38,456 nucleotides of DNA from Phenylobacterium sp. (lineage in GTDB: Bacteria > Pseudomonadota > Alphaproteobacteria > Caulobacterales > Caulobacteraceae): contig NZ_JAEUMO010000069.1 in the NCBI RefSeq assembly GCF_016793285.1, forward strand, positions 1 through 38,456. Reading direction: 5' to 3'. The notes beneath the pieces were generated by a model. It worked only from the letters and a program-made list of their open reading frames with translations. It ran no database searches and was not told the DNA's origin. Position numbers and translations under genes: made by a program. This document shows positions 4,430 through 18,645 of this stretch, piece by piece. Numbering within the stretch: the stretch's first letter is position 1; each line of letters begins with the position of its first letter.

Positions 4430-4516
<87 letters not shown>

Positions 4517-4606
4517 CCGTCCGATAGGTGATTGATGTAGTTGAGTTTCCTCGCGTTTTTGAGAGCCCCGGTACACATCGTTGGTACACATGGGGCAGCA
4601 CGCGAG

Positions 4607-6319
4607 ATGAAGAACACCCAGTATCTGGTTCAGGTCGGCGGCCGTTGGTACTGCCGTGTGAGGTGGCCCAAGGAGATTTGGGGCGCGCTCGGGGACGGCA
4701 GTTTCAAGCGTTCGCTGCGGACGGACAGCCGTTCCGAGGCGCTTCTCAGGCTGCCGGGAGCCCTCCAAGAGTTCCAGAACGCCGTCGCGGTGGCCAAGGC
4801 GCGACAGTTGGAGGCCGCGCCCCGGCCGCTCGGCGCTGGTGAGATCACGCTGCTGGTGGCGCGGTGGTACGAGGCCGCGCAGGGCGCGTTCGAGCCGAAC
4901 CCTCGGCCCCAGCAGCGCGACGCAGTGGAGCGCGAGGAGCGGCGTCGGTTCATCGAGACGCAGGAGGAGGGGCTGGTCCGCAAGCGCCGCCAGCTCGGCG
5001 AGGCGGACTACTCGACCCTCTATCCGCTGGTGGACGGCCTCCTCTCGCGCACGGGCCTCAACGTGGACCGGGAGGACGCCTCGTTCGGGCTCCTGTGCCA
5101 GACCCTCATGCGCGCCTGGATCGCCCTGGAGGAGACGGCGCTCGCGAAGATGCGCGGCGAGTTCGGCCACCGGCCGGCGGACCCGATCCTCCAGGAGCTA
5201 GAGGCGGCCGAGCCGTCCGTCGCGGCGGCGCCGACATCGCGGACGCTGGACGGGCTCATCGGCGCCTATGAGGCAGACAACGCCGCGCGGTGGTCGCAGT
5301 CGACCGTGAACGCCTACAGGCCCGTCTTCAGGGTCCTCAGGGACACCCTGGGGGCAAACCGCGAGGTGCGCTCGGTGGACCGCGAGGCGGCCCGCGAGGT
5401 GTTCGAGGTGGTGAAGGGCCTACCGCGGAACCTAGGCAAGAACCGGGAACTGGCGGCGCTGCCCGTCCCTGCGGCCGTCGCCGCGGCCCAGTCGCTCGGC
5501 CTGCCGACGATCAGCCCGAAGTCCATAAACGACAGCTACATGGCCCTCAGCGTCGCTCTTTTCGGCTGGGGCCTGCGCGAGCGTTGGACGGAGTACAATC
5601 CCTTCGTGGGGCTCCGCGTGGTGGAGGCGGTCGCGCCGCAGGACAAGCGGGACGCCTTCACGCCCGACCAGCTCGCCGCCGTGTTCGGCGGTGCGCCCTG
5701 GTCCACTGGCGATACGGCGCCCGGGGGTAAGCCGTCGCTCTACTGGGCGCCATTGCTGTCGCTCTACCACGGCCTGCGAATCGGCGAGCCGTGCGGGCTG
5801 CTGACCGAGGAGATCGTGGAGCGGGACGGCGTCGCGGCCATCGACGTCAAGCCGAACGACCTTCGGCGACTGAAGAACCGCCACACCAAGCGGTTCCTGC
5901 CCATCCATCCCGAGCTGATCCGGCTGGGCTTCCTCGACTACGTGGAGGCGCGGCGGCGCGCCGGGGACCGGCAGCTCTTCCCGGAGGCGCGGCAGGACGC
6001 CAACGGCCACTACGGGGACCACGTGACCGACTGGTTCCGCCGTCTCCTGGAGGCGCGCGGCCTGCGCGGGCAGGGCGTCAACAGCGGGAACCTCACGCTG
6101 CACTCCCTGCGCCACAGCTTCCAGGACGCGCTGCGCGACGCCGGCATAGAGGAGACGCTGGAGGGCAAGGTGCTGGCGGGCCGGCAGCGCGGGGCGGACC
6201 CGGTGGCCGCGGCTTACGGGAACGGGCGGAACATGGAGCAACTCGCAGCGCAGCTTGGCAAGGTCGCTTATCCGGCGGTCGGCATCCCGGTCGCCGGTGG
6301 CGTCGAGGCGGCGGCATGA
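4607..6319 (+). CDS. Tyrosine site-specific integrase of the island
   Basis: Catalyses recombination between the element and the tRNA-Leu attachment site. The protein has 570 residues from the ATG at 4607; the frame runs further upstream into the attL region but that extension is unlikely to be coding. The N-terminus (YLVQVGGRWYCRVRWPKEIW) resembles the short basic N-terminal domain I know from many proteobacterial phage-type integrases (DUF6538-like, from memory). A core-binding region follows at about 210-330. Catalytic residues visible are R391 (HGLRIGEPCGLL), K428 (NRHTKRFLPIH), H499-x2-R502-H503 (LHSLRHSFQ) and nucleophile Y537 (AAAYGNG). All are present, so it should be active. It begins 86 bases after attL and reads away from the tRNA. 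Confidence 0.93.
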   Translation: MKNTQYLVQVGGRWYCRVRWPKEIWGALGDGSFKRSLRTDSRSEALLRLPGALQEFQNAVAVAKARQLEAAPRPLGAGEITLLVARWYEAAQGAFEPNPRPQQRDAVEREERRRFIETQEEGLVRKRRQLGEADYSTLYPLVDGLLSRTGLNVDREDASFGLLCQTLMRAWIALEETALAKMRGEFGHRPADPILQELEAAEPSVAAAPTSRTLDGLIGAYEADNAARWSQSTVNAYRPVFRVLRDTLGANREVRSVDREAAREVFEVVKGLPRNLGKNRELAALPVPAAVAAAQSLGLPTISPKSINDSYMALSVALFGWGLRERWTEYNPFVGLRVVEAVAPQDKRDAFTPDQLAAVFGGAPWSTGDTAPGGKPSLYWAPLLSLYHGLRIGEPCGLLTEEIVERDGVAAIDVKPNDLRRLKNRHTKRFLPIHPELIRLGFLDYVEARRRAGDRQLFPEARQDANGHYGDHVTDWFRRLLEARGLRGQGVNSGNLTLHSLRHSFQDALRDAGIEETLEGKVLAGRQRGADPVAAAYGNGRNMEQLAAQLGKVAYPAVGIPVAGGVEAAA

Positions 6320-6411
6320 CGCTGAAAGACATCCCATGGATGTTCGCGAATAGGTCAGCGGCGACGGGCAAAAGGGTCTAGTTGCGACGCCTTCACCAAC
6401 GAAGGCTCCTC

Positions 6412-6606
6412 ATGAAGACCGGAAACCACCCCTCGCGCGACGCCTTGCGACGCGCCGTCCTCATCGACATGGCGGACGCACGATCCGAACCCGAGATCAT
6501 GCGCCGCCACGCCATCTCCAGGTACGTCCTCAACCGCCTCCGAGGCGAGTTCTCGGTCAGCGAGTGGGGAGAGCTGATGGACCGATGCAGGGCCAACCCC
6601 TTCTGA
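6412..6606 (+). CDS. Small basic hypothetical protein between int and hsdR
   Basis: The ORF encodes 64 residues from the ATG at 6412, with AAGG six bases upstream; an in-frame TTG at 6382 would add 10 residues. The segment EPEIMRRHAISRYVLNRLRGEF reads like a helix-turn-helix (a helix, a short turn around HAIS, then a basic recognition helix), so a DNA-binding role is possible. I do not recognise the family. It lies 92 bases after the integrase stop and 45 bases before hsdR on the same strand, so it could be a regulator of either gene or an island accessory protein. Moderately confident it is real because of the start signal and position. Confidence 0.55.
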   Translation: MKTGNHPSRDALRRAVLIDMADARSEPEIMRRHAISRYVLNRLRGEFSVSEWGELMDRCRANPF

Positions 6607-6651
6607 CGAGCGCCCGTTGCCACGGCGGCGCATGCAACCCAAAGTGCCCTC

Positions 6652-9390
6652 GTGGCGACGCCGGAACAGAAAGCGCGCCAGCTCATCGACGCTCAGCTTG
6701 AGGGGGCGGGCTGGATCGTACAGGACCGCGACGAGATGAACCTCGGCGCTGGGCTGGGCGTGGCCGTGCGGGAGTACCCGCTGGCGGCCGGGCCGTGCGA
6801 CTACCTGCTCTTCGTGGATCGTAGGGCATGCGGGGTCATCGAGGCCAAGCCGGAAGGGGTGACGCTGTCCGGCGTGGCCGACCAAGCGTCCGGCTATCAG
6901 GACAAGCTCCCCGGCCACCTGGGCAACTGGGGCGATCCCCTGCGGTTCGACTACGAGGCCAGCGGGTCGGAGATACTCTTCAGCGACCGAGCCGATCACG
7001 AGCAGCGGTCGCGCTACCTCTTCGGCTTCCACCAGCCCGCCACGCTGCTGGAGTGGCTGAAGGCCGGGACGTCCCTTAGGGGCCGCCTGCAGGGGCTCCC
7101 GCCGCTCGACGTCACGGGCCTCCGCGACTGCCAGACGGAAGCCATCACTGCCCTGGAGGCCTCCCTGGCGGGCGGCAAGCCGCGCGCCCTTGTCCAGATG
7201 ACCATGGGGGCCGGAAAGACCTTCACGGCAGCCACGCTGGCGTACCGTCTCCTGGCCCACGCCGACGCCAAGCGCGTCCTCTTCCTCGTCGACCGCAACA
7301 ACCTCGGCCGCCAGACCCTCAAGGAGTTCCAGGCGTATCGCCCACCGGGCACGGGGCGGCTGTTCACCGAGCTGTACAACGTCCAGCGCCTGGGCACCGC
7401 GGGGCTCGACCGGGACGCCAAGGTGGTCATCTCGACCATCCAGCGGGTGTTCGCGCAGCTCTCGGGCCAGGAGTTGAGCGAGGAGGACGAAGAGGTCAGC
7501 GCCTACGAGGGGGAGACCCGAGGGTCGCCTAGGGCCGTCGCCTATAGCGCCGACATGCCGCCCGAGACCTTCGACGTGGTCATCGTCGATGAGTGCCACC
7601 GTTCGATCTATGGCACCTGGCGGCAGGTGCTGGAGTACTTCGACGCCTTCACCATCGGCCTCACCGCGACGCCCTCGGCGCACACCCTGGGCTACTTCCA
7701 GAAGAACCTCGTGGCCGAGTACCCCTACGAGCGCGCCGTCATCGACGGCGTCAACGTGCCCTTCGAGGTGTTCCGCATCCGCACGGAGATCGGCGAGCGG
7801 GGCGGCAGGGTGCCTGCCGGGTTCACCGTGCCCCGTCGCGACCGCCACACCCGCCGCCAGCGGTACGAGGAGCTGACCGACGACCTGATCTACGCGCCCA
7901 GCGAACTGGACCGCTCGGTCATCGCGCCCAACCAGATCAGGACGGTCCTGGAGACCTACAGGGACACTCTGTCGACGGAGCTGTTCCCCGGCCGCGACGA
8001 GGTCCCGAAGACCCTGATCTTTGCCAAGGATGACCACCACGCCGAGGAGGTGGTCCACATCGCCCGCGAGGTGTTCGGCAAGGGCAACGAGTTCGCCAAG
8101 AAGATTACCTACAACACCGGCAACGTGGACCCGGAGACGCTGATTGCGGCGTTCCGCAACAGCTACAACCCGCGCATCGCGGTAACGGTCGACATGATCG
8201 CCACGGGCACCGACATCAAGCCGGTAGAGGTGCTGGTCTTCCTGCGGGACGTGAAGTCGGCGCTCTACTTCGAGCAGATGAAGGGCCGGGGCGTGCGCAC
8301 CGTGGCGGACGCCGACCTCGCCAAGGTGACGCCCGACGCCCGCACCAAGGACCGCTTCGTCATCATCGACGCGGTGGGCGTGACCGAGAGCGCCAAGACC
8401 ATCTCCGCGCCGATGGAGCGGGAGCGGGTGGTCGCGTTCGACAAGCTGCTGGAACAGGTCGCCAGCGGGCGCAGCGACCCCGACGTGGTCTCCACCCTGG
8501 CCGCGCGGCTGGCCGCCCTGGACCGCAAGCTGACCGACGAGGACCGGGCGCGGGTGGCGGCCGTCACCGGCGGGCGCACGCCCAAGGACATCGCTGCCGG
8601 GCTCCTGGAGTCGCTGGACAACGACCGCATCGAGGCCGCCGCCCAGGAGGCGACGCCGGGCGCGGTCTTAGCTGCCCGGTTCGACGAGACGGCGGCACGG
8701 CTGAGGCAGGAGGCGCTGCGGGTGTTCGACGACCCCAGGCTGCGCAAGGTGCTCATCGAGCTGAAGTCTCAGAGCGAGGTGGTGATCGACGAGTTCACGC
8801 CCGACGCGGTGATCTCGACGGGGTTCGACGCCGGCGCGGCCGAGGCGATGACCGGGAAGTTCCGGCAGTTCCTGGACGAGAACCAGGACGAGCTGACGGC
8901 GCTCAGCATCCTCTACGGCAAGCCCTACGCGGCCCGTCGGCTGACCTACGAGAGCCTGGAGGAGCTGCGGAGCGCGTTGGCGCGGCCCCCCTGGCTGCTG
9001 GAGCCCGCGGCCGTGTGGCACGCCTACAAGCGGCTCTCGAACGGCGCCCTGCGGGCCGATCCGGCGCGGGTGCTAACCGACGTGGTGGCGCTGGTGCGCT
9101 ATGCGCTGGGCCAGGCCGAGACGCTCGCCCCGCTGTCGTCCGAGGTGGCCGGCCGCTTCAACCTGTGGATCGGCCGCGAGGAGCGGGCGGGGCGTGCCTA
9201 CACGGCCGAGCAGCGGGCCTGGCTGGAGGCGATCCGCGACCATCTGGCCGCCAACGTTGACCTGCACCTCCGCGACCTTCAGGAACTCCCCCAGTTCGCC
9301 GAGCGGGGCGGCGTGATCGCCGCACGTCAGGCGTTCGGATCGCGGTTGGACGGGCTCATCGAAGACCTGTCGGACGCGCTGGTGGCGTAG
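6652..9390 (+). CDS. hsdR: Type I restriction enzyme, R subunit (EcoEI-like HsdR)
   Basis: Restriction and ATP-driven translocation subunit of a type I system that cleaves incoming DNA lacking the host methylation pattern. The N-terminal PD-(D/E)xK nuclease shows D50 and E64-A-K66 (GVIEAKPEG). The helicase motor follows: Walker A TMGAGKT at 184-190, Walker B DECH at 303-306, motif III LTATPS near 327, motif V MIATGTDIKPVE and motif VI QMKGRGVRT. The C-terminal third (from about residue 640) matches the EcoEI-type C-terminal domain in character. Length of 912 residues is typical for this subgroup. Start is GTG at 6652 without a strong Shine-Dalgarno. First gene of an hsdR-hsdS-hsdM operon, 9 bases before hsdS. 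All catalytic motifs are intact. Confidence 0.95.
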   Translation: MATPEQKARQLIDAQLEGAGWIVQDRDEMNLGAGLGVAVREYPLAAGPCDYLLFVDRRACGVIEAKPEGVTLSGVADQASGYQDKLPGHLGNWGDPLRFDYEASGSEILFSDRADHEQRSRYLFGFHQPATLLEWLKAGTSLRGRLQGLPPLDVTGLRDCQTEAITALEASLAGGKPRALVQMTMGAGKTFTAATLAYRLLAHADAKRVLFLVDRNNLGRQTLKEFQAYRPPGTGRLFTELYNVQRLGTAGLDRDAKVVISTIQRVFAQLSGQELSEEDEEVSAYEGETRGSPRAVAYSADMPPETFDVVIVDECHRSIYGTWRQVLEYFDAFTIGLTATPSAHTLGYFQKNLVAEYPYERAVIDGVNVPFEVFRIRTEIGERGGRVPAGFTVPRRDRHTRRQRYEELTDDLIYAPSELDRSVIAPNQIRTVLETYRDTLSTELFPGRDEVPKTLIFAKDDHHAEEVVHIAREVFGKGNEFAKKITYNTGNVDPETLIAAFRNSYNPRIAVTVDMIATGTDIKPVEVLVFLRDVKSALYFEQMKGRGVRTVADADLAKVTPDARTKDRFVIIDAVGVTESAKTISAPMERERVVAFDKLLEQVASGRSDPDVVSTLAARLAALDRKLTDEDRARVAAVTGGRTPKDIAAGLLESLDNDRIEAAAQEATPGAVLAARFDETAARLRQEALRVFDDPRLRKVLIELKSQSEVVIDEFTPDAVISTGFDAGAAEAMTGKFRQFLDENQDELTALSILYGKPYAARRLTYESLEELRSALARPPWLLEPAAVWHAYKRLSNGALRADPARVLTDVVALVRYALGQAETLAPLSSEVAGRFNLWIGREERAGRAYTAEQRAWLEAIRDHLAANVDLHLRDLQELPQFAERGGVIAARQAFGSRLDGLIEDLSDALVA

Positions 9391-9399
9391 GGGGAGTTG

Positions 9400-10824
9400 G
9401 TGTCGAGGGGGAATCGCGCGGCGGTGGAGGCCGGGCCCGTGGACGGCCCGTGGAAGCTGCCCGACGGCTGGCGCTGGGAGCTGCTAGGTAGCCTCGGGGA
9501 CTGGTACGGCGGCGGGACGCCGTCCAAAGCTAACCCCGCGTTCTGGACTGGCGGGAGCGTGCCCTGGGTCTCGGCGAAGGACATGAAGGCCGACTACATC
9601 GACGATGCCGAGGACAAGATCACAGACGAGGCGATCCGGAACTCGGCCGCGAAACGCATACCGTCAGGGTCAGTTGTTTGCGTAATGCGGTCGGGCATCC
9701 TGAAGCACAGCTTTCCCGTAGCGGTGACACGTCGGGATGTGACGATCAACCAGGACCTCCGCGCACTCCATCCGCGGCCGGATGTGGACCCGAGGTTCCT
9801 CGCTTACTACCTGCGCCGAACGGCTGATGATGTCCTTGGCGAGTGCTCCAAGAACGGCACAACAGTGAACAGCATCGAAGCGGGCCGGCTGATGCGACGC
9901 CCTGTTCCGCTTCCTGCTCCCGGGACCCAACGGCGGATCGTCGACCGGATCGAAGAACTCTTCACTGAGATTGGCGAAGGTCGGCGATCCTACGCACGTG
10001 CTTGCATGCAGTTTGATGCCTATCGCCGAAGCGTGCTCCAGGCCGCAGTCATGGGTGACCTAACCTCTGACTGGCGGCGTGGGCGATCCGTGAGCGAGAC
10101 GGGCGGGCAACTTGTGGAGCGGATCGCTCAGCTGCGGAAGGAGCAAGGGGTCAGCCGGCCCGGCAGGAGCGAGAACGGAAGCTCACCCAATGAGGCAGAA
10201 CGTTCGCCGCTGCCCGCTGACTGGACATGGGCCACCTGGGATCAAGTTGGGTCCTCGCAGAACGGACGGGCGTTCCCCAGCACAGACTACAGCTCAGAAG
10301 GGGTGAAGCTCCTTCGACCCGGCAATCTGAGTGCAAGCGGGGCCTTAGCCTGGACGCCCGACAACACGCGTCGACTCCCAGAGCGGTACGCGGCTGAGAA
10401 CGACGACCTTTTGGTTCGCGGGGGCGAGCTGATTATGAACCTCACGGCCCAGTCTCTAAGGGACGATTTTCTCGGCAGGGTGTGCCGAACCGGTTCCGAC
10501 GACCGGTGTCTCCTAAACCAGCGACTGGCGCGTCTCACGCCTAGCCTTGTGGACCCGGAGTTCCTCCTTCGTGTCTTCCAATCTCCAATCTTCAGGCGAT
10601 TTGTCGGCGACCTGAACACTGGCAGTCTCATCCAACACATGTACACGAGGCAGCTTGCCGGCTTCGCATTCCCCATTCCGCCTCTAGATGAGCAAGCGGA
10701 GATTGCGAGGCGAGTTCGCACCTCGCTTTCAGTCGCGCCAGACGACTGGATTGACGTCTCAACCGTCGACGCGCTTCGCGCTGGTGTCCTCGCCGCCGCC
10801 TTCCGGGGAGACCTCGTCGCGTGA
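9400..10824 (+). CDS. hsdS: Type I restriction-modification specificity subunit
   Basis: Recognises the bipartite target sequence for both methylation and restriction. Two target-recognition domains are visible. TRD1 runs from about residue 17 (LPDGWRWELLGSLGDWYGGG) to about 160. A conserved helical spacer follows (PLPAPGTQRRIVDRIEELF, then RRSYARACMQFDAYRRSVLQ). TRD2 begins at LPADWTWATWDQVGS near 268, and a second spacer starts at IPPLDEQAEIARRVR. Length is about 474 residues. The start is uncertain: GTG at 9400 lies 3 bases from GGGGAG, a TTG at 9397 abuts it, and a GTG at 9424 has GAGGGGG upstream. The region is less GC-rich than hsdR and hsdM, as often seen for horizontally exchanged specificity genes. 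The stop overlaps the hsdM start by 4 bases. Confidence 0.93.
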   Translation: MSRGNRAAVEAGPVDGPWKLPDGWRWELLGSLGDWYGGGTPSKANPAFWTGGSVPWVSAKDMKADYIDDAEDKITDEAIRNSAAKRIPSGSVVCVMRSGILKHSFPVAVTRRDVTINQDLRALHPRPDVDPRFLAYYLRRTADDVLGECSKNGTTVNSIEAGRLMRRPVPLPAPGTQRRIVDRIEELFTEIGEGRRSYARACMQFDAYRRSVLQAAVMGDLTSDWRRGRSVSETGGQLVERIAQLRKEQGVSRPGRSENGSSPNEAERSPLPADWTWATWDQVGSSQNGRAFPSTDYSSEGVKLLRPGNLSASGALAWTPDNTRRLPERYAAENDDLLVRGGELIMNLTAQSLRDDFLGRVCRTGSDDRCLLNQRLARLTPSLVDPEFLLRVFQSPIFRRFVGDLNTGSLIQHMYTRQLAGFAFPIPPLDEQAEIARRVRTSLSVAPDDWIDVSTVDALRAGVLAAAFRGDLVA

Positions 10825-12278
10825 ACGAACAGACGCTCATCAGCAAAGTCTGGAACTACGCCCACGTGCTGCGCGACGAGGGCGTCAGCTACGGTGAATA
10901 CGTCGGCCAGATCAGCTTCCTCCTGTTCTTGAAGATGGACGACGAGCGGACCAAGCTGCTCGGCGAGCCCTCGCTGATCCCCCCGGAGTTCCAGTGGGAG
11001 ACCCTGCGGTCGAAGTCCGGGGAGGCGCTCGACGCCCACTACAAGGACGCGCTGGCCAAGCTCTCGAAACGCACCGACTTCGTCGGCACGCTGTTCCTCA
11101 AGGCCGAGAGCAAGATCGACGATCCCGCCAAGCTCCAGCGCCTGGTCAGCCTGATCGACGGCGAGACCTGGATGGGCGTGAACGTGGACGTAAAGGGCAC
11201 AATCTACGAGGGCCTGCTGGAGCGGAACGCCGGCGAGGTGAAGAGTGGGGCGGGCCAGTACTTCACCCCGCGGGCGCTCATCCAGGCCATGGTCGAGGTG
11301 GTCGACCCGCAACCCACGGAGACCATCTGCGACCCTGCCTGTGGGACCGGTGGGTTCCTGCTGGCCGCCTACGAGCACATGAAGGCCAAGCCCGCGGCGC
11401 GGGACCGCAAGGTCAACGAACGGCTGCGGCGCGAGACCTTCCGCGGCTACGACATCGTGCCCGAGGTGGTGCGGCTGTGCGCCATGAACCTCTACCTGCA
11501 CGGGATCGGCGGCGACGCGTCGCCGGTGGTCGCGGCGGACGCCCTGCTGACCAAGCCGGCCGAGAGCTGGGACATTATCCTGGCCAACCCGCCGTTCGGG
11601 AAGCGCCAGTCGTTCCGCATCGTCAACGACGGGGGCGGGATCGACACCGAGCGGCAGGACTATGTCCGCGAGGACTTCACGGTCACCACGGGCAACAAAC
11701 AACTGAACTTCTTGCAGCACATCATGTCGGTGATGGGCCCGCAGGGGACCGCTGCGGTGGTGCTGCCCGACAACGTGCTGTTCGAGGGCGGGGCTGGCGA
11801 GACGCTGCGGAAGAGGCTGCTCACCGAGTTCCGGTTCCACACCCTGCTGCGGCTGCCCACCGGGATCTTCTACAAGCAGGGCGTGAAGGCCAACGTGCTG
11901 TTCTTCGACCGCGCCCCGGCGGGCGAGGGCGTCGCGACCGAGGCGCTGTGGGTCTACGACTTCCGCACCAACCAGCGGTTCACGCTGCGCGAGCGGCCTC
12001 TGAAGCGCGCTGACCTGGACGACTTCGTGGCGGCCTTCAAGACCGGCCGCCAGCATGAGCGGCAGGAGAGCGAGCGGTTCCGGCGATTCGCCTATGACGA
12101 CGTGAAGGGCCGCGACAAGCTCAACCTCGACATCTTCTGGCGCAAGGACGACGGCCACATCGACCCCGACAGCCTCCCGCCGCCCGACGAGGTCGCCGCG
12201 GAGATCGTCGAGAACCTGGAGCTGGCGCTGGAGAAGTTCCGCAAGGTGGCGGCGGCGCTGGCCAAGGCGGACGCCTGA
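10821..12278 (+). CDS. hsdM: Type I DNA N6-adenine methyltransferase subunit
   Basis: Transfers a methyl group from S-adenosylmethionine to adenine in the HsdS target, protecting host DNA. The N-terminal helical HsdM_N domain spans about residues 1-125. The SAM-binding region has GQYFTPRALI at 145-154 and motif I DPACGTGGF at 171-179. The catalytic motif IV NPPF is at 256-259. Length of 485 residues is typical. Start GTG at 10821 overlaps the hsdS stop (GTGA), implying translational coupling. Its own TGA overlaps the ATG of the next small membrane-protein gene. The gene order R-S-M differs from the common R-M-S order. Confidence 0.96.
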   Translation: MNEQTLISKVWNYAHVLRDEGVSYGEYVGQISFLLFLKMDDERTKLLGEPSLIPPEFQWETLRSKSGEALDAHYKDALAKLSKRTDFVGTLFLKAESKIDDPAKLQRLVSLIDGETWMGVNVDVKGTIYEGLLERNAGEVKSGAGQYFTPRALIQAMVEVVDPQPTETICDPACGTGGFLLAAYEHMKAKPAARDRKVNERLRRETFRGYDIVPEVVRLCAMNLYLHGIGGDASPVVAADALLTKPAESWDIILANPPFGKRQSFRIVNDGGGIDTERQDYVREDFTVTTGNKQLNFLQHIMSVMGPQGTAAVVLPDNVLFEGGAGETLRKRLLTEFRFHTLLRLPTGIFYKQGVKANVLFFDRAPAGEGVATEALWVYDFRTNQRFTLRERPLKRADLDDFVAAFKTGRQHERQESERFRRFAYDDVKGRDKLNLDIFWRKDDGHIDPDSLPPPDEVAAEIVENLELALEKFRKVAAALAKADA

Positions 12279-12610
12279 TGGCCGCGGACGGCGACCTCCA
12301 GGCCCGGCTTCCGGCGCCCGTCTGGGCCGTGCCCCTGGCGCTGCTGGTCGTGGCCGTCGCGCCGTGGTGGCCGTACGGGTTCTACACGCTTCTGCGCCTG
12401 ATGGTGTGCGGGGCCTCCGTCTACACGGCCTATGCCCTGCTGTCGGCCGGCCAGAGGTCGTGGCTGGGCTGGCTCTTCGTCGGGCTGGCGATCCTCTACA
12501 ACCCGGTGTTCCGGGTCCACTTCGACCGCGACACCTGGAGCGTCCTCAACCTTGTCTCGGCGTTTCCGTTCGCGGTCCTGGGATGGACCCTGAGGAGGCC
12601 CGCCGCTTGA
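12278..12610 (+). CDS. Small multi-span membrane protein coupled to hsdM (DUF6804-like)
   Basis: A 110-residue hydrophobic protein with about four membrane spans: around residues 15-36 (VWAVPLALLVVAVAPWWPY), 38-57, 63-77 (WLGWLFVGLAILYNPVF) and 88-105. The pattern of a PYGFYTLLR segment, then AILYNPVF, then a D-R-x-x-W before the last span fits a small bacterial family I remember as DUF6804, which I cannot verify here. The ATG at 12278 shares one base with the hsdM stop (TGATG), so it is almost certainly translated with the R-M operon. Function unknown; it may be a passenger or an accessory of the restriction system. Confidence 0.75.
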   Translation: MAADGDLQARLPAPVWAVPLALLVVAVAPWWPYGFYTLLRLMVCGASVYTAYALLSAGQRSWLGWLFVGLAILYNPVFRVHFDRDTWSVLNLVSAFPFAVLGWTLRRPAA

Positions 12611-12627
12611 CCACCAGAGAGTACCCC

Positions 12628-13215
12628 ATGCGGTTCGAGAACAGGCTTGCGAGCAGTTCGGATGATCTCGAAGTCTGGATCGACTGCCTCTTCCATCGCG
12701 AGCTCGCCGAGTACGGTTTCACCCTGGACTTGCCCGCGTTGGCGTCGGAAGAGCGGGCTTCTGAGATGGAGCAGTTTGGGTGCGCGATGACGCGGGGCGT
12801 TGCTGCGCTGGTGCGTGTCCCATCCTGGTTGTCGACGCCCAAGTCGACCTTCTACCGGGCGATGCTAAGCGTGTGGCAGAACCAGGACGAGGGACTGTCA
12901 GCGACGGGGCGGCTCATTGCCCCTGAGCAGAACCTGTTCCTGCAGCTCAATGTCACCCCTAGCATCTTTCGGCGCTGCGTCGAGGCCACTGAAAAGGCCG
13001 ACGCATGGTTCCACGAGCCCACTTGGGGCGACCTGAGAGACCTCGGGGACGTGACCGCTCTGGAGAGGCTTGGCGTCGCGTTGGAGGACGTTGAGGCGCA
13101 GTGTTTTCACCTTCGTGCGCACGGCAGCATTGTCGCGACAGAGCAGCAGGGCGGGCTCGACAGCATGACACTGACGCTGGATCGCATCTCATTCGGGTCG
13201 CCGGCGGTCGGATAG
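12628..13215 (+). CDS. Hypothetical protein downstream of the R-M operon
   Basis: A 195-residue soluble, acidic protein from the ATG at 12628, supported by AGAGAG about 7 bases upstream. The open frame extends upstream but overlaps the previous gene and is not needed. Nothing is recognisable as a catalytic motif. The sequence reads as mixed alpha/beta with the conserved-looking stretches LFLQLNVTPSIFRRCVEATEKADAW and a beta-like C-terminus (GLDSMTLTLDRISF). Base composition is less GC-rich than the chromosome, in keeping with island cargo. It lies 17 bases after the small membrane protein and may belong to the same transcript. No function proposed. Confidence 0.7.
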   Translation: MRFENRLASSSDDLEVWIDCLFHRELAEYGFTLDLPALASEERASEMEQFGCAMTRGVAALVRVPSWLSTPKSTFYRAMLSVWQNQDEGLSATGRLIAPEQNLFLQLNVTPSIFRRCVEATEKADAWFHEPTWGDLRDLGDVTALERLGVALEDVEAQCFHLRAHGSIVATEQQGGLDSMTLTLDRISFGSPAVG

Positions 13216-13348
13216 CGATGACTGGCGCCTGTTCGGGTCGAACCCGGAAACAAAGCAGGGGCGGGCAAGCGGGAGCGGGCGTGCGACGGCGCCGGTGCGT
13301 CAGGCTGCGCGTTGCGGGCCGGGGCGGCGGGCGGTAGTCGCGGTCCTA

Positions 13349-14761
13349 GTGCGCGTATCACCCTCCAGCGACGCGGCGGCCGTCGCGCCCTTCCCCGACC
13401 GCCCTCATCTGAGGAACAGCCGGCCCCTGTCGTGGGACCGGGCGCCCGCCACGCCGGCGGCAAGGGCGGCGCTGGCCGAACTGCTCGTGCAGATGGAAGC
13501 CTGGGAGCCTCGCCGGCGGGCGCGGCGTGCGGACGACCGGGCGCGCCTGGAGGCCACGCTGGGGGCCATTGCGCTGGACCTGTTCGCGGCGGCCGGCGAG
13601 GACGCGGAGCGGTGGCTGGCGTATTCACGCCGCAACGCCGACTACGAGGCCCTGCAGCGGCGGTATGTCCATCCCGAGGCGACGCGAACGACCGTCGAGG
13701 CGGTGGTGGGGTTCCTGGAGGCGGGCAGCTACGCCGAGACGAGGGCGGGCAGCTACCGGCGCCAGGCGCTGGGCGGCGGGGGTTACCGCTCACGACTGCG
13801 GGCGACGGATCGGCTGGTAGCGTACTTCGCAGGCCGCGGCATCGGGCTGGACGACATCGGGGTGCGCGAGGCCGCGGAACTGGTGGTCCTCAAAGGCCCC
13901 GCGGCGACGCGCGGCGGCACGAAGCCACTGCTCGGCTACGACGACACCGGCGAGACCTGCCGGATGCGCGAGGAGCTGAGGGCCTGGTCGGCGGTCGCCC
14001 AGCGCCACGACATCCGCCCCGGGGGAGACCGATGGGACCCGATGACCCGGCCGCTGGAGGACGCGGACGAGGGCGCTGGGGAGGCTGTGGAGCTGCACCG
14101 GGCCCGCCTCTACCGGGTCTTCAACAACGGCTCCTGGAGGGCCGGCGGGCGGTTCTACGGCGGCTGGTGGATGACCATGCCGTCGGCTGACCGGAAGCGG
14201 CTGACCATCGACGGCGAGCCGGTGGTGGAGCTGGACTTCAAGGCGCTCCATCCCCGCATGGCCTACCACCTGGCGGGGTGGCCGCTGGACCTGGAGGACG
14301 ACCCCTATGACCTCGGCGGGGCGTGGGCGCCCGTGGACCGGGGCGCCGTCAAGGTGGCCTTCAACCAGCTCCTCGCGGTCGGTCCCGGCGCCGGGATCAG
14401 GAGGCCGGCCGACCTCGTGCTTCCCCGGGGGCGCAGCTATGGGGACCTGCTGGCGGCCCTGGAGGCGAAGCACGAGGCCATCCGGCCCTGGCTGCGCTCG
14501 GCCAGGGCGCTGGAGCTGCAGAACCTCGACAGCCGGATTGCCGCGGGCGTGCTGGCTTACTTCACGGCGAGGGGCCGGCCGGTGCTGCCGGTGCATGACA
14601 GCTTCGTGGTCGCAGCGCGGGATGAGTACAAGCTCGGAGAGACGATGTTCCTCGCCTATCGGGCCGTGCTGTCGGATCGCGGCGGCGTCGCGGCCTGGCC
14701 GGTGGTGAAGGGATGGAGCGGCACCGGCGTGGAGGAGAGGGTGCGGGGCGTCCTCTGCTGA
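13349..14761 (+). CDS. Single-subunit polymerase-like protein (family A / T7-type motifs A, B, C)
   Basis: Numbering here is from an alternative GTG at 13295 (488 residues); the GTG at 13349 gives 470 residues and neither start has a clear Shine-Dalgarno. The C-terminal half aligns by eye with the polymerase palm. Motif A is V-E-L-D314-F-K-A-L-H-P-R-M-A-Y-H-L-A-G, against D-Y-S-Q-I-E-L-R...H-L-S-G in DNA polymerase I. The motif B start is R349-x3-K353-V-A-F-N. Motif C is P-V-H434-D435-S-F, the HDSF form seen in T7 RNA polymerase. A signature FNNGSWRAGGRFYGGWW (277-292) precedes motif A. No 3'-5' or 5'-3' exonuclease motifs are seen, and the N-terminal half is a helical, Arg/Ala-rich region without a recognised domain. 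The spacings (A to B 39, A to C 121 residues) are shorter than in PolA. Possible roles: island replication, repair or defence. Function unproven. Confidence 0.72.
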   Translation: MRVSPSSDAAAVAPFPDRPHLRNSRPLSWDRAPATPAARAALAELLVQMEAWEPRRRARRADDRARLEATLGAIALDLFAAAGEDAERWLAYSRRNADYEALQRRYVHPEATRTTVEAVVGFLEAGSYAETRAGSYRRQALGGGGYRSRLRATDRLVAYFAGRGIGLDDIGVREAAELVVLKGPAATRGGTKPLLGYDDTGETCRMREELRAWSAVAQRHDIRPGGDRWDPMTRPLEDADEGAGEAVELHRARLYRVFNNGSWRAGGRFYGGWWMTMPSADRKRLTIDGEPVVELDFKALHPRMAYHLAGWPLDLEDDPYDLGGAWAPVDRGAVKVAFNQLLAVGPGAGIRRPADLVLPRGRSYGDLLAALEAKHEAIRPWLRSARALELQNLDSRIAAGVLAYFTARGRPVLPVHDSFVVAARDEYKLGETMFLAYRAVLSDRGGVAAWPVVKGWSGTGVEERVRGVLC

Positions 14762-14897
14762 GGCATGGGGTGATGATCCCCTTCCCCGGCTCTCACTGGG
14801 GGGCCATCCCCTCGGGGGGGGCCTCGAGGTCCATACTGGGGGCCGTAAGGACGTGCCCGATCCGGCTCCATAGTAGGGGCGACACCCCCCTCGGAAC
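14762..14897. other. G-run-rich intergenic region with a short repeated motif
   Basis: This 136-bp region between convergent genes has several G-runs and a repeated ACTGGGGG(G)CC motif (near 14796 and 14836), plus an AGTAGGGGCG near 14872. I see no gene, no clear terminator with a T-run and no strong hairpin. Confidence 0.35.
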
Positions 14898-15200
14898 TCA
14901 GTCCGGCGCGGGCGCGCGATACCCCTTCGGTTTGGACGCCGCCCAGGCGTCGAGGTCGTCGAGGTAGTAGGCGGCGTAGCCGTAGCGTTTGTGGTGGGCG
15001 GGACCCGTTCCCCGGGCGCGGCGGCTCTCCAGCGCCTTCTTGCTGAGGCCTAGCATCCGCGCGGCCTCGGCCTCCATGACCCAGTGGCGCGGGTCGGCGC
15101 TCGGCGCAGGCTTGATCTCCAGGGGGTCGAACGTGGGGACCACATCCTGGAGTGCGAGCTGGTAGCTCGTGCGGTCCTTGCCGCTGGGACGCTTGGGCAC
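14898..15200 (-). CDS. Excisionase-like HTH DNA-binding protein
   Basis: A 100-residue basic protein starting at GTG 15200. Residues about 40-90 (WVMEAEAARMLGLSKKALESRRARG, then YYLDDLDAWAAS) form a MerR/AlpA-type winged helix-turn-helix, the fold of phage excisionases and many island directionality factors. The D-D-L-D-A-W end is the usual final helix of this fold. In an element with a tyrosine integrase this is the best candidate for a recombination directionality factor, although AlpA-like proteins can also be transcription regulators. It is transcribed opposite to the 86-aa gene with about 150 bp between their starts. Function is inferred from fold and context. Confidence 0.75.
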   Translation of the reverse strand: MPKRPSGKDRTSYQLALQDVVPTFDPLEIKPAPSADPRHWVMEAEAARMLGLSKKALESRRARGTGPAHHKRYGYAAYYLDDLDAWAASKPKGYRAPAPD

Positions 15201-15352
15201 TGTTACGCTCGCACTCGGAGGGCCGCAGATGGCCCCATCAGAGGTTCACTTAGTACCCCACCGGCGACCTCGTGGGCAGCCCGCCAGAGCGTCGCAGGAG
15301 TCGTCTAGGGCCACCCGCATGGACTAGTGTCGGCGCTCAGAGGGAGGCGATC

Positions 15353-15613
15353 ATGAGCAGGGTACTGGAGATGCTCGAACTGGAGCGTCAGTCCTTCGAG
15401 CGGCACGGTGTAGAGGTCCGGGCGGTGCTGCTGACTGCGGCGGGCCTCAGAGACATCCTCGCTCACGCCGCACCGGACGATCCTCGGTTGGAGCGACTGC
15501 CCGATGGCAAGCTCCGCGTCTTTGGCCTGTCGCCGATCTACGACGACACCCGCGGGCCGATGTTGATGGACGAGATCGAACTCGGAAACTACCGCCGAAC
15601 GGCGGGCCGCTAG
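15353..15613 (+). CDS. Hypothetical protein, 86 aa
   Basis: The start is ATG at 15353, preceded by an excellent AGGGAGG at 15341-15347. The frame is open further upstream to 15272, but that part includes only a non-coding leader. The protein MSRVLEMLELERQSFERHG... has a helical N-terminus followed by a probable beta region with PDGKLRVFGLSPIYDD. No family recognised. Its 3' end overlaps the 3' end of the convergent serine resolvase by 4 bases. The strong ribosome-binding site makes it likely real. Confidence 0.65.
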   Translation: MSRVLEMLELERQSFERHGVEVRAVLLTAAGLRDILAHAAPDDPRLERLPDGKLRVFGLSPIYDDTRGPMLMDEIELGNYRRTAGR

Positions 15614-16164
15614 TCGGCTGCGAGCAGGCGGTAGGCCGAGGCGCGGCTGATCCCGAGCCGGCGCGCGATCTCCACGGGACGCAGACCCTCGGCGGCGAGC
15701 CGGCGGGCGTCGCCTTCCTGAGCCCGGGCGGTCGGCTTGCGGCCCCGGTACTTGCCGGCAGCCTTGGCCTTGGCGATCCCCTCGCGCTGGCGCTCCAGCA
15801 TGATCGAGCGCTCGAACTGGGCGATGGCGCCCACCATGGTGAGCAGCAGCTCGCCCGTGGCCGTGGAGGTGTCGATGGCGAGGTCGAGGATACGCAGGTG
15901 CGCGCCCTTGGCCTTGATGCGCCCGCTGATCTCAAGGAGGTGAGCCACGGAGCGCGCCAGTCGGTCGAGCTTGGTGACAACCAGGGTGTCGCCCTCGCGG
16001 ATGAAGTCGAGCGCCTGGGCAAGCTGCTCGCGCGCCACCACGTCCACCGACGACACCTGCTCGATGAAGAGGCGCTCACATCCGGCGGCCTTCAGGTCGC
16101 GCTCCTGGGCCTCCAGGCCGGCCGTCTGGTCTGTCGTGGAAGTCCGTGCGTAACCGACGATCAT
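15610..16164 (-). CDS. Serine recombinase (resolvase/invertase family)
   Basis: A 184-residue small serine recombinase of the Tn3-resolvase/Hin type, which makes double-strand breaks through a 5'-phosphoserine and rotates subunits. The nucleophile S9 lies in VGYARTSTTDQ, and the active-site set D67-R68 and R71 is in TKLDRLARS. The long E helix region follows (GAIAQFERSIMLERQREGIAKAKAAGKYRGRKP), then a C-terminal HTH (GLRPVEIARRLGISRASAYRLL). Start ATG at 16164 with GGAGG 5-6 bases upstream. It may resolve dimers or invert or excise a segment of the island. The upstream 130 bp carry five TGAGAC motifs that could be its binding sites. All key residues are intact. Confidence 0.93.
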   Translation of the reverse strand: MIVGYARTSTTDQTAGLEAQERDLKAAGCERLFIEQVSSVDVVAREQLAQALDFIREGDTLVVTKLDRLARSVAHLLEISGRIKAKGAHLRILDLAIDTSTATGELLLTMVGAIAQFERSIMLERQREGIAKAKAAGKYRGRKPTARAQEGDARRLAAEGLRPVEIARRLGISRASAYRLLAAD

Positions 16165-16174
16165 GTTCGCCTCC

Positions 16175-16290
16175 GTCTCAATGAACTCTTAGATGTTGTG
16201 GCGGAGTTGTCTCAGATTGTCAAATCGACTTCTGTGAGACGACACAGTAGGGGTGGTGAGACGTCTCGCTGGGCCACGGTCGTGTGAGAC
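16175..16290. promoter_or_regulatory. Cluster of five TGAGAC motifs upstream of the resolvase (res-like site or operator)
   Basis: TGAGAC occurs at 16235-16240, 16257-16262 and 16285-16290 on the plus strand and at 16175-16180 and 16209-16214 on the minus strand. One copy lies within a perfect 10-bp palindrome GAGACGTCTC (16258-16267). Successive motifs are 34, 26, 22 and 28 bp apart. Two copies point one way and three the other, as expected for paired recombinase or repressor sites. No gene lies in this interval. The role is inferred. Confidence 0.5.
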
Positions 16291-16295
16291 GGCCG

Positions 16296-17042
16296 CTACG
16301 AAGTGGCCTTCATCGTTGCAACGATGCGCTTAGCGATAAAACGCTGCGCCGCCGGAAGGATGAGCGCAGACGCTTCGTCGATGGTCATTGGCTTGCGTGG
16401 TGGCTGATAACCCAAGTCGCCGTGACGGCCGGCAGGCCCGATGGCCGCGAAGTTGTTTGCCGTGTGCGTGAACCGCTTGAGTTCGGCTTTGGTGGACCCC
16501 GCCGCGGCCACAATGTCGTCCTCGCTCATGCCGTGCGTCTTCAAGAAGTCCATCAACTGATAGAGGGACGCGTAGGTAAGGCCGTGAGTGCCGAGAACCG
16601 TCAGCATGCCTCGCACAGCAAGGTCGCTGCGAGCCAAGTAGATGGCACCTTCCAGCATCTGGTCGGAGACCAACCTCCGCGCGTCCTTGTCGAGCGGGCG
16701 CCTGACGATGGTTGAGGAGAAGGGGTCGCCGCCGGCCGCAACCTCATAGGCGGACACCCGCTTATCACTCCGCATGTCGTACAGATCGCCCAGCCGGTCG
16801 GGTCGGTAGCTGCTCGTAAGCAGGTACAGGGCTCCGTCGAAGACCACCTTGAGGGCGGCAGCGCGTGCGAACAGCTCGGGTCCCGGCGTAAGCTCATCGA
16901 GGTGCACGGACGACCAGAAGTAGACCGGCGGGCGGTCATCCTCCTCGTAGCGCAGGATGGCTATGTCGGGACCATGAAGCGACCAGCTCAGGCCGGCGAT
17001 CAGGTTGCTGCCGAAGAGATCAAATCCCCAGCGGTAGCTCAT
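16296..17042 (-). CDS. Hypothetical protein next to attR, 248 aa
   Basis: I chose the ATG at 17042, behind a purine-rich AGAGAGGGGGG stretch; the frame is open upstream to 17279 but that part looks non-coding. The N-terminal half (MSYRWGFDLFGSNLIAGLSWSL, then AAALKVVFDGALYLLTSSY) looks like a beta-rich domain. The C-terminal half is helical with ASLYQLMDFLKTHGMSEDDI and FTHTANNFAAIGPAGRHGDLGY. The TANNxxxxGxxxRHG pattern seems like a conserved signature found in uncharacterised island proteins, from memory only. No membrane segment or enzyme motif. Last gene of the element, with about 290 bp of apparently non-coding DNA before attR. Confidence 0.7.
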   Translation of the reverse strand: MSYRWGFDLFGSNLIAGLSWSLHGPDIAILRYEEDDRPPVYFWSSVHLDELTPGPELFARAAALKVVFDGALYLLTSSYRPDRLGDLYDMRSDKRVSAYEVAAGGDPFSSTIVRRPLDKDARRLVSDQMLEGAIYLARSDLAVRGMLTVLGTHGLTYASLYQLMDFLKTHGMSEDDIVAAAGSTKAELKRFTHTANNFAAIGPAGRHGDLGYQPPRKPMTIDEASALILPAAQRFIAKRIVATMKATS

Positions 17043-17329
17043 GCGGACAGTCCCCCCTCTCTTTTGTAGGTGTTGCCATGTAGGAGCCAGCGGCAGCGAT
17101 TGCACCCCCATGGGGGGAAGCGCGCACGGCCCGCCTGGAACATGGGGCCTCAGATAAGCGATGCTGAAACCATCGAGCCTGGAGGCGAGGCTGGCGGCCG
17201 GCCCGTTGTGTATGACGGGTTCCCCGTGTAGGAACGCCTTGAGCGTCACGGGCCACAAGCCTAGGACACACAGGTGCACACGGGGTTGGCAAAACCCAGG
17301 AAAATCAACAAGCTCCGGGACGGCCGCCT
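17043..17329. other. Non-coding end of the island
   Basis: No convincing gene. It contains a perfect 12-bp palindrome CCCCCATGGGGG at 17105-17116. Near the end is CCCAGGAAA (17295-17303), which is inverted relative to TTTCCTGGG (17335-17343) inside attR, a possible integrase arm or core element. Confidence 0.4.
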
Positions 17330-17352
17330 AGTCCTTTCCTGGGCACCACCGT
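17330..17352 (+). repeat. attR direct repeat (copy of tRNA-Leu 3' end)
   Basis: Perfect second copy of the 23-bp attL repeat. It contains only the T-arm remainder, acceptor strand and CCA of the tRNA, without the rest of the gene, so it is a tRNA fragment and not a tRNA gene. It sits 21 bases from the P450 stop codon and marks the right border of the element. Confidence 0.93.
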
Positions 17353-17373
17353 TGGCGGTGGCTCCGGTCTTCA

Positions 17374-18645
17374 TCAGTGCATTTTGAAGCGGATCGGTAC
17401 GGACTTGGGGCCGCAGACGAAGCTGGCCTCCATGCGGCGCGGCTCGCCGTCCAGTTCGACGGACTGGAGGCGCGGCAGCAGTTCCTCCCAAAGGATCCGC
17501 ATCTCCATCCGCGCCAGGTGCTGGCCCAGGCAGACGTGGGCGCCGTAGCCGAAGGCGACGTGGCGGTTCGCCGCGCGGGCGACGTCGAAGTCGAAGGGCC
17601 GCTCGAAGACGCTCTCGTCACGGTTGCCGGAGGCGTAGCTCAGCATCAGCCAGTCGCCCTTGGCGATCTTCTGCCCGGCGAGTTCGGCGTCGGCGGTGGC
17701 CGTGCGCATGAAGTGCTTCACGGGCGTCTCCCAGCGGATCGACTCCTCGATCAGGCCGCGGATCAGGGCGGGGTCGGCCTTGACGGCGGCGAACTGCGCG
17801 GGCCGCTCGGCCAGCGCCCATAGCGCGCCGGCCGTGGTGGCGGAGGTGGTGTCGTGCCCGGCGGTCGCGGCGATGATGTAGTAGGACATCGCCTCCAGGT
17901 GGCCGAGCGGCTGGCCGTCGATCCGGCCGTTGGCGATGACGCTGGCGAGGTCCGCCCGCGGGCTTCGCCGCCGGTCCTCCGTCATCTCGTTGAAGTAGAC
18001 GATGAAGTCGGCGATCGTCGCCTGAAGGCTGGCGAGGGCGGCCTCGGTGCTCTCGCTCTTGCCCCGGCTGCGGCTCAGGTCCGGATCGGCGCTGCCGAAC
18101 AGTTCCTGGGTGAGAGTGAGCATCCGCGGCTCGTCGGCCTCGGGCACGCCCAGCACCTCCATCACCACATGCAGCGGATAGAGGAAGGCGACATCGCGCG
18201 CGAAGTCGCAGCGTTCGCCGTGGGCGGCCATCCGGTCGACGAAGCCCCGCGCGATCTCGCGGATGCGCGCCTCCAGCGCCCGCAGGTTCTGCGGCGCGAA
18301 CGAGGGCTGGGTCAGGCGGCGGTAGTTGGCATGGTCGGGATTGTCCATCTGCACCAGCGAGCGCACCAGGTGCGGCGAGCCGCCCATCATCTCGCGCACC
18401 CGCCGGTCGGCCTCGACGGTGGTGAGCACGGTCGAGCGGTCGCCGTTGTGGAACAGCTCGTTCTTGAGCTCGACCTCGCGGATGTCGTCCTGCCGGGTGA
18501 CCACCCAGAAGGGATCGAAGCCTTCCGGCTGGGCCACGGCCAGCGGGGCCTCGCGGCGCAGCCGCGTGAAGGCCTCGTCGCTGCGGCTTCGGTCGGCGTA
18601 GGCCTTCGGGTCGACGATGGTGTCGGCGATGTCCCTGGCGATCAT
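17374..18645 (-). CDS. Cytochrome P450
   Basis: Soluble bacterial class I-type cytochrome P450 monooxygenase of 423 residues. The I-helix oxygen-binding motif AGHDTT is at 262-267, the K-helix E301-S-I-R304 is present, and the heme loop FGYGAHVCLGQHLA carries the axial Cys372. I chose the ATG at 18645, with GAGG about 8 bases upstream; the frame is open to 18804 but the added residues overlap the divergent promoter region. No membrane anchor. The substrate cannot be assigned from sequence. The divergent rubredoxin gene (122 bp between starts) may share regulation or supply electrons, though most P450s use ferredoxin. Its 3' end lies 21 bases from attR, so before island entry it was next to tRNA-Leu. 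Confidence 0.94.
   Translation of the reverse strand: MIARDIADTIVDPKAYADRSRSDEAFTRLRREAPLAVAQPEGFDPFWVVTRQDDIREVELKNELFHNGDRSTVLTTVEADRRVREMMGGSPHLVRSLVQMDNPDHANYRRLTQPSFAPQNLRALEARIREIARGFVDRMAAHGERCDFARDVAFLYPLHVVMEVLGVPEADEPRMLTLTQELFGSADPDLSRSRGKSESTEAALASLQATIADFIVYFNEMTEDRRRSPRADLASVIANGRIDGQPLGHLEAMSYYIIAATAGHDTTSATTAGALWALAERPAQFAAVKADPALIRGLIEESIRWETPVKHFMRTATADAELAGQKIAKGDWLMLSYASGNRDESVFERPFDFDVARAANRHVAFGYGAHVCLGQHLARMEMRILWEELLPRLQSVELDGEPRRMEASFVCGPKSVPIRFKMH

Follow-up and report, generated by a model that had tools for sequence, protein, structure and literature searches.

The relatives of a polymerase-like gene of Phenylobacterium sp. have their main home in tRNA-integrated mobile elements, mostly of Alphaproteobacteria. 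The window, by which we mean the whole stretch of 38,456 bp that was analysed, holds one such element, and the gene in question (POL) encodes what its predicted models describe as a compact family-A-type polymerase with no exonuclease and no recognisable classical thumb. The protein family was known before, from phages and without a function; what is new is that it serves as a signature gene for elements integrated in tRNA genes, that it probably has a winged helix and that residues at its nucleotide gate are altered. In the literature searched, mostly outside subscription journals, we recognised no paper describing these tRNA-integrated POL elements, and PMC12324425, in the part of it available, concerns other elements than this class.

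POL lies in an element of 12.85 kb that is bounded by a perfect 23-bp repeat of the 3' end of a tRNA-Leu gene and has the following features:

4430–4516, plus strand: tRNA-Leu (CAG), the attachment gene (ARAGORN)
4498–4520, plus strand: attL, the 23-bp repeat, made up of the final 19 bases of tRNA-Leu plus another 4
4541–6319, plus strand: tyrosine integrase (DUF6538 + Phage_integrase; Pfam DUF6538 2.4e-9, over the cut-off; Phage_integrase 6.1e-5, 23.3 bits, under the cut-off of 27.1)
6652–9390, plus strand: HsdR, type I restriction subunit, cargo (Pfam ResIII 1e-35, EcoEI_R_C 1.9e-32)
9397–10824, plus strand: HsdS, specificity subunit, cargo (Pfam Methylase_S 4e-18)
10821–12278, plus strand: HsdM, methyltransferase subunit, cargo (Pfam N6_Mtase 5e-63)
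12278–12610, plus strand: DUF6804 protein, cargo (Pfam 1.7e-18)
13295–14761, plus strand: POL, family-A-like polymerase of the divPolA2 kind, GTG start, 488 aa
14898–15200, minus strand: AlpA/excisionase-like HTH_17 protein, 100 aa (PF12728 3.3e-5, 24.5 bits, under the cut-off of 27; homologue in the G575 island)
15610–16164, minus strand: serine resolvase, 184 aa (PF00239 3.5e-41)
16165–16295, no strand: probable res site, with 5 of the window's 9 GTCTCA/TGAGAC motifs in 131 bp, largely conserved in the G575 island
16296–17279, minus strand: ORF of 327 aa, the last long ORF before attR, no Pfam match
17330–17352, plus strand: attR, the second perfect 23-bp copy, which marks the element's right border (no insert in G525, G723 and G733)

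The probable res stretch lies upstream of the resolvase gene, as expected of a res site. Further ORFs between attL and attR have no Pfam match, and the host lpt genes begin at 19086, beyond attR. Among the island ORFs scanned, we found neither relaxase or transfer genes nor a Pfam match to a primase. Empty sites could be observed in three congeneric genomes: 48 bp in G525 and 61 bp in G733 separate the tRNA flank from the lptC region, and in G723, 172 bp lie between the tRNA flank and the sequence found right of attR in the window. A fourth congeneric genome (G575) has another island at the same tRNA, with an integrase, POL, an AlpA-like gene and a 22-bp repeat. With repeats of the tRNA 3' end, an integrase next to the border and empty sites in its kin, the POL locus is a tRNA-integrated mobile element. 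Directly right of attR, the segment 17374–18649 has several long copies (71–83% similar) elsewhere, in genomes belonging to the genus and the family; judged by these copies, it is a repeated gene family or a mobile sequence outside the island.

An earlier reading made from the sequence alone had proposed a compact polymerase with motifs A, B and C of the family A or T7 type. The motif residues are indeed present in the ORF at 13295–14761, namely E312-L-D314-F-K-A-L-H319-P-R-M-A-Y-H-L-A-G, R349-x3-K353 and H434-D435-S-F; position 13349, where the span given in that reading begins, is in-frame codon 19. The parts of the gene discussed below are:

13427–13909, plus strand: residues 45–205, N-terminal domain, probable winged helix (predicted order of elements)
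13910–14680, plus strand: residues 206–462, palm/fingers core (predicted models and fold matches)
14147–14152, plus strand: G285-R286, at the 'TGR' position of PolA, invariant in both family alignments, A1 and A6
14234–14251, plus strand: motif A, from D314 (96/96) to H319 at the steric-gate position (His in 87/96), in the hhalign register
14339–14377, plus strand: motif B, from R349-x3-K353 to residue 361 (Asn in 89/96, Ala in the window)
14594–14599, plus strand: motif C, H434-D435 (conservation in homologues)

Six residues (D314, K353, D435, G285, R286 and R300) do not vary among 20 diverse homologues, and three others (R349, E312 and H434) are conserved to at least 90%. Residues were also counted in 96 non-redundant sequences, window included, after removal of identical sequences and of those below 390 aa (alignment A1 omits L007, which has an internal TGA, the near-identical L022 and second matches of the same locus). 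D314, R286 and R300 are found in all 96, K353 in 95, E312 in 94, R349 and D435 in 93 and H434 in 92. This conservation indicates that the motifs are more than chance, and D314, K353 and D435, on which the polymerase proposal had been staked, are thus kept in 93–96 of 96 sequences. Between the window POL and a homologue of the same genus (321/488 aa identical), dN is 0.26 and dS 0.96; the resulting ratio of about 0.27, from this single pair, points to purifying selection.

At the nucleotide-binding site, the family departs from PolA. The position of the PolA steric-gate Glu, in the register given by hhalign, is His in 87 of the 96 sequences, the position of the motif-B Tyr is Asn in 89, and that of the motif-B Phe is mostly Leu. 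The window POL has Ala at the Tyr position, a departure from its own family's Asn. We take the two PolA residues to be E710 and Y766 in E. coli numbering. As judged from the aligned sequences, the replacement of the steric-gate Glu and the motif-B Tyr, mostly by His and Asn, is a new observation. Motifs A and C are 121 residues apart in POL, compared with a distance in E. coli Pol I that we assume to be 177 residues.

Sequence searches gave no known family for the window POL. It had no match in Pfam, NCBIfam or PADLOC; in particular, Pfam DNA_pol_A (PF00476) was not matched, and no exonuclease Pfam match was found in its 488 aa. Both phmmer and profile searches of PDB sequences with POL yielded no polymerase. 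The sole PHROG match was phrog_4756 (2.3e-36), which is listed with unknown function. When a profile of the family core was compared with 22 alphaproteobacterial PolA sequences, the motifs came into register with an hhalign score of 29.9 over 187 columns: D314 falls on the motif A Asp, G285-R286 on the TGR segment, R349/K353 on motif B and H434-D435 on motif C. None of 120 shuffled PolA alignments (60 block-shuffled, 60 column-shuffled) reached this score, the best having 27.2, and the reversed alignment gave 24.8; hhalign's own probability for the link is only 10%, though the score is above all shuffles. The assignment as a polymerase therefore rests on the predicted fold together with the motifs. 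The host genome has one copy of POL and an ordinary PolA elsewhere, so that POL is not the repair polymerase of the host.

A model of the window POL was built with 20 sequences (pLDDT 77.5, pTM 0.73; ten-residue blocks from 271 to 460 at 84–97). Every one of its best 50 Foldseek matches in the PDB was either a DNA polymerase of family A or a single-subunit RNA polymerase, the mitochondrial and T7 RNAPs among them, with a best E of 0.012 and no match at E ≤ 0.001. The model of the compact homologue L009, built with 69 sequences including the window's (pLDDT 91.4, pTM 0.90), had 22 matches at E ≤ 0.001, and its best 50 were all family A DNA polymerases (probability 0.82–1.00). TM-scores on the query were low (0.26–0.39), because just part of the protein matches. 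In the window model, a strand at 308–314 carrying D314 is followed by helices at 318–326, 349–361 (with R349/K353) and 405–425 and by a hairpin at 431–440 (with D435). Polymerases thus fill the best 50 fold matches of both models, as would be expected of a protein with a palm, and the predicted fold and the conservation together support the proposed compact polymerase without exonuclease, similar to family A or to single-subunit RNAPs. The N-terminal part (79–170) is arranged as helix-strand-helix-helix-strand-strand in both models, which we take to be the winged-helix order. From these models the N-terminal domain is likely, though not proven, to be a winged helix; profile matches of this part to Orc2 (E 1.8) and DP-2 (E 0.2) were not significant, and designed proteins outscored DP-2.

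Relatives of the window POL were found by tblastn in 29 phage records and 3 plasmid records (E ≤ 1e-5). An even, class-wide genome sample had a match in 18 of 289 genomes, its own included. With profile A6, 24 of 398 genomes matched in the phylum sample (23 of the same class, own included, and 1 outside) and 7 of 100, again own included, in the order sample. Named genomes, when scanned, yielded 215 relatives, and 79 loci were retained. Almost all of these are labelled alphaproteobacterial (Rhodobacterales, SAR116 and others); three, all from metagenome bins, are labelled Comamonadaceae, Cyclobacteriaceae and Desulfovibrio. Such a patchy distribution is that of a mobile gene. A search of viral contigs with the window protein found no relative, and one with alignment A3 found only 5. 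These five IMG/VR 'viral' contigs (L106–L110) carry POL, accompanied within 7 kb by an integrase in three of them (L106, L107 and L109), and they may be POL elements filed as viruses. In L007 the POL gene is interrupted by a stop, and in L051, L054, L063, L072, L074, L090 and L098 it seems to lie in adjacent pieces, as expected of decaying islands.

Repeats of a tRNA end are a frequent feature of POL loci. Among 84 database loci, many of which end at contig ends, 28 had such a repeat (at least 15 bp), and in 27 of the 28 it brackets POL. The class sample had repeats in 9 of 20 loci, bracketing POL in 9/9, and 13 of its stretches, which measure up to 20 kb, contain an integrase; 11 loci thus were without a tRNA repeat and 7 without an integrase. 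For the order and phylum samples, 20 regions were taken as a selection of the matched places; repeats were present in 10, with POL bracketed in 10/10, and an integrase in 18 of the 20. Repeats had to be at least 300 bp apart in the database loci and 1000 bp apart in the class and order/phylum samples. Twenty polA control loci, several of them shorter than 20 kb owing to contig ends, had 0 repeats and 0 integrases. The database-locus and class samples overlap in part (L142, L144, L158 and L159 seem to be the same contigs as L027, L028, L058 and L100), and L239 was removed as a duplicate of L035. After de-duplication there were 45 distinct tRNA-bounded POL elements, including the window's, which range from 2.5 to 17.3 kb (median 10.3 kb) and are nearly all alphaproteobacterial. 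They occupy 11 tRNA types (Leu 12, Gln 7, Val 7, Ser 5, Gly 5, and others). POL is present in all 45 by selection, a tyrosine integrase in 43 and a serine resolvase in 14. Beyond integrase and POL, nothing is common to the small elements, roughly one in three of which also has a resolvase.

Besides the integrase, no gene cluster near POL recurs widely. Cargo was examined in two selections, 104 of 164 ORFs of at least 150 aa and 133 of 163 small ORFs, all called greedily with no gene finder. In the larger proteins, the commonest Pfam matches were resolvases (7), followed by DNA methylases, Sel1 and trypsin-like proteins with 2–3 each; PADLOC found methyltransferases and two Cas9 matches. Almost nothing recurs in the small ORFs, one of which matches a PIF1-like helicase. 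Capsid, terminase and relaxase families are absent from those shown for the larger proteins (the first 25 of 97, so that single cases may be hidden), as is any recurrent helicase; nor do the families shown for the cargo of POL elements include a second shared replication gene, and no shared origin was found among them. Iterative searches for the AlpA-like gene detected it nowhere but in the window and in the island of G575, and the small ORFs, for which 25 of 26 families are shown, have no HTH_17 among these 25. A rule of integrase, AlpA and POL for all elements was tested and not upheld, the AlpA-like gene not being general.

The sequence-only reading had also linked POL with the type I restriction-modification (R-M) system beside it. 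This link was not borne out: the neighbourhoods of homologues show no constant pairing with R-M genes, and both neighbours and cargo vary. Since cargo differs among POL elements, the type I R-M genes of the window are best seen as one kind of variable cargo, and an R-M-linked or defence role of POL was set aside. Cargo of another kind is seen in a Desulfovibrio sp. UBA6079 contig (L105), where a POL element at 5981–18136 has a 47-bp tRNA-Leu repeat. It contains a CRISPR-like array of 25 repeats with 65–66 bp spacing (16175–17802), adjoining ORFs of 1058, 297 and 113 aa. Cas9 (2 of the 104) and Cas2 (1 of the 133) were matched in the cargo sets that include the ORFs of this contig, with the source ORF not given; the array and its ORFs are probably a type II CRISPR-Cas system carried as island cargo.

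POL also occurs in a contig of a different make. The first 20,000 of the 21,261 bp of contig 14 of genome G105 (L161) consist of a tandem 8.9-kb unit whose copies are 99–100% identical. The unit encodes RepA_C, a ParA-like ATPase, a resolvase, a D12 methyltransferase, a Sel1 protein and a POL that bears a C-terminal HTH_3, just under the cut-off. The contig probably represents either a circular plasmid that the assembly rendered as a concatemer or an array of tandem copies.

The phage branch of the family has been published as divPolA2, a name that occurs in the searched literature in a preprint and its apparent journal version. According to the part of that account available (Yutin et al. 2024, PMC11348598), divPolA2 is found in barbaviruses and other phages and has an active-looking palm, no homologous thumb, no exonuclease, an N-terminal domain 'without detectable similarity' and a variable neighbourhood; repair or RNA synthesis was suggested as its function. 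The window POL matches protein AUR93476 of phage 1.187.O, from which Barba35A gp034 is annotated, and the bacterial homologue L009 matches 246 phage records (E ≤ 1e-3), 115 of them Rheinheimera phages. By these matches, POL and phage divPolA2 are one sequence family. In a tree of 60 sequences, which has long branches, several weak forks and a midpoint root, the nine phage proteins included group as a single clade (99/98), with greater diversity on the bacterial side. POL resembles the divPolA2 of Caudoviricetes in its palm, in having neither an exonuclease nor a classical thumb, in its separate N-terminal domain and in its paralogues and variable neighbourhood; the predicted N-terminal part, which stands where a thumb would be, has its elements in a different order. 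In contrast, the bacterial POL genes lie largely in tRNA-integrated elements, which are absent from the available part of PMC11348598, and the N-terminal domain described there as having no detectable similarity looks winged-helix-like in our models. In three phage loci, a HigA/Cro-like HTH gene lies about 92–107 bp upstream of POL on the same strand (L184, 5036–5317; L185, 5027–5290; L187, 5150–5422), and some phages have POL at two or three places per record.

POL shares with the family A DNA polymerases (PolA, PF00476) the palm/fingers fold, motifs A, B and C, the TGR-like Arg and the linear order, but it has no Pfam match and no exonuclease, and Glu of the steric gate and Phe and Tyr of motif B have mostly given way to His, Leu and Asn. 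With the T7-like and mitochondrial single-subunit RNAPs it shares the fold class, the HDS motif C and the GR-x-Y segment. We assume that T7 RNAP itself has motif C in the form HDS-F, a GR-x-Y segment, a steric-gate Gly and a motif-B Tyr; at the latter two positions, however, POL has mostly His and Asn, and no T7-type N-terminal domain was recognised in it (by fold class; the structures were not superposed). PICMI and P4-like satellites are likewise small integrative elements with an integrase, an AlpA-like gene (in POL elements, that of the window) and one replication-type enzyme. In POL elements, however, this enzyme is a family A core and not a DUF3987/DUF5906 primase, AlpA is not general, and the site is a tRNA gene, whereas PICMI uses fis.

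The reading that we find best, though our confidence in it is a little short of even, is that POL is the element's own priming or replication polymerase. Replication of the island had already been considered in the sequence-only reading; it stays the best reading and gains its context from the tRNA-integrated elements. A resolvase with its own res-like site suggests that the element replicates as a circle. PICMI satellites, which are about as large, depend on an integrase, AlpA and a primase to be excised and replicated (PMC10803314, in the part available), and by analogy POL may take the place of the primase or initiator. The integrase, aided in the window element by the AlpA-like protein, would excise the island as a circle. 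The winged helix would set POL at a site on the element, where the palm would make a primer or short DNA, and the machinery of the host (or of a helper) would then copy the circle. The resolvase would reduce multimers of the circle, which would re-integrate or reach a new cell via some vehicle.

There is also evidence against an initiator role. On the plasmid-like contig L161, POL is accompanied by a standard RepA as well as by a ParA-like ATPase and a resolvase, which weakens the idea of POL as sole initiator. Further points against it are the POL loci that lie in no recognisable element, the AlpA-like gene that is not general and the lack of a recurrent helicase in the families shown and of a shared origin. 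The phage members lie in variable neighbourhoods, and barbaviruses encode their own PolB (PMC11348598, in the part available). The RepA contig and the barbavirus PolB fit an auxiliary part in priming or repair nearly as well, and our confidence is kept below even for this reason. In a more far-reaching form, possible but somewhat less likely, the priming polymerase would be a new kind of initiator for a large class of alphaproteobacterial elements in tRNA genes, in which an origin-recognising winged helix is joined to a reduced family A polymerase that makes the first primer. The His/Asn pair may then admit both ribo- and deoxynucleotides, and phage divPolA2 would be a captured branch. To our knowledge, no family A primase-polymerase initiator has been known so far.

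The strongest alternative, in our view rather unlikely, is a repair or gap-filling polymerase that mends gaps, lesions or restriction breaks in element or phage DNA as this enters, is excised or integrates, but has no part in starting replication. It was proposed for phage divPolA2 by Yutin et al. (PMC11348598, in the part available), agrees with the presence of POL in PolB-encoding barbaviruses and on the RepA plasmid-like contig, and fits the lack of a widely recurrent neighbour cluster beyond the integrase. However, apart from the integrase, POL is the only gene that the small elements have in common, though these were chosen for POL, and its probable winged helix suggests action directed to a site. 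A single-subunit RNA polymerase, transcribing element genes or producing an RNA at a promoter of the element to which the winged helix binds, is less probable still. The mitochondrial and T7 RNAPs among the fold matches of the window model, the HDS-F motif C that we take T7 RNAP to share and the missing steric-gate Glu of DNA polymerases are in line with it, but DNA polymerases fill the best 50 matches of the better model (L009), and the Tyr and Gly that we assume for T7 RNAP are mostly Asn and His in POL. The N-terminal domain also looks unlike that of T7 RNAP by fold class, without superposition. Synthesis of RNA was likewise raised by Yutin et al. (PMC11348598, in the part available).

Improbable, and slightly more so than an RNA polymerase, is a conflict gene, that is, a toxin, defence or counter-defence enzyme under control of an HTH partner that helps elements and phages to compete. 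The HTH gene directly upstream in three of nine phage loci, the two or three POL places of some phage records and the R-M cargo adjoining POL in the window could be explained in this way. The other six phage loci, however, have no HTH gene annotated directly upstream of POL, HTH_3 was matched by just 1 of the 133 small element ORFs, and PADLOC did not match POL; the defence role entertained in the sequence-only reading also finds no support in cargo that varies from element to element. That POL is a dead polymerase core acting as a DNA-binding regulator would accord with the replaced Glu and Tyr of the nucleotide-binding site, but is very improbable given that both metal-binding Asp and the Lys and Arg of motif B are kept in 93–96 of 96 divergent sequences and that dN/dS is about 0.27 in the one pair compared.

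Compared with what the sequence alone had suggested, the analysis adds the exact borders of the element, the role of the integrase, the AlpA-like and resolvase genes, the winged-helix-like N-terminal half and the published divPolA2 phage branch. The puzzling divPolA2 protein of phages thereby gains a main home and a testable role, and POL could serve as a marker gene for recognising many small integrative elements of Alphaproteobacteria that have no annotation. Because the steric gate is altered, the nucleotide choice of POL can be tested directly in vitro. Should POL prime or start replication, a role as initiators would be added to those that family A polymerases have in repair, replication and transcription.
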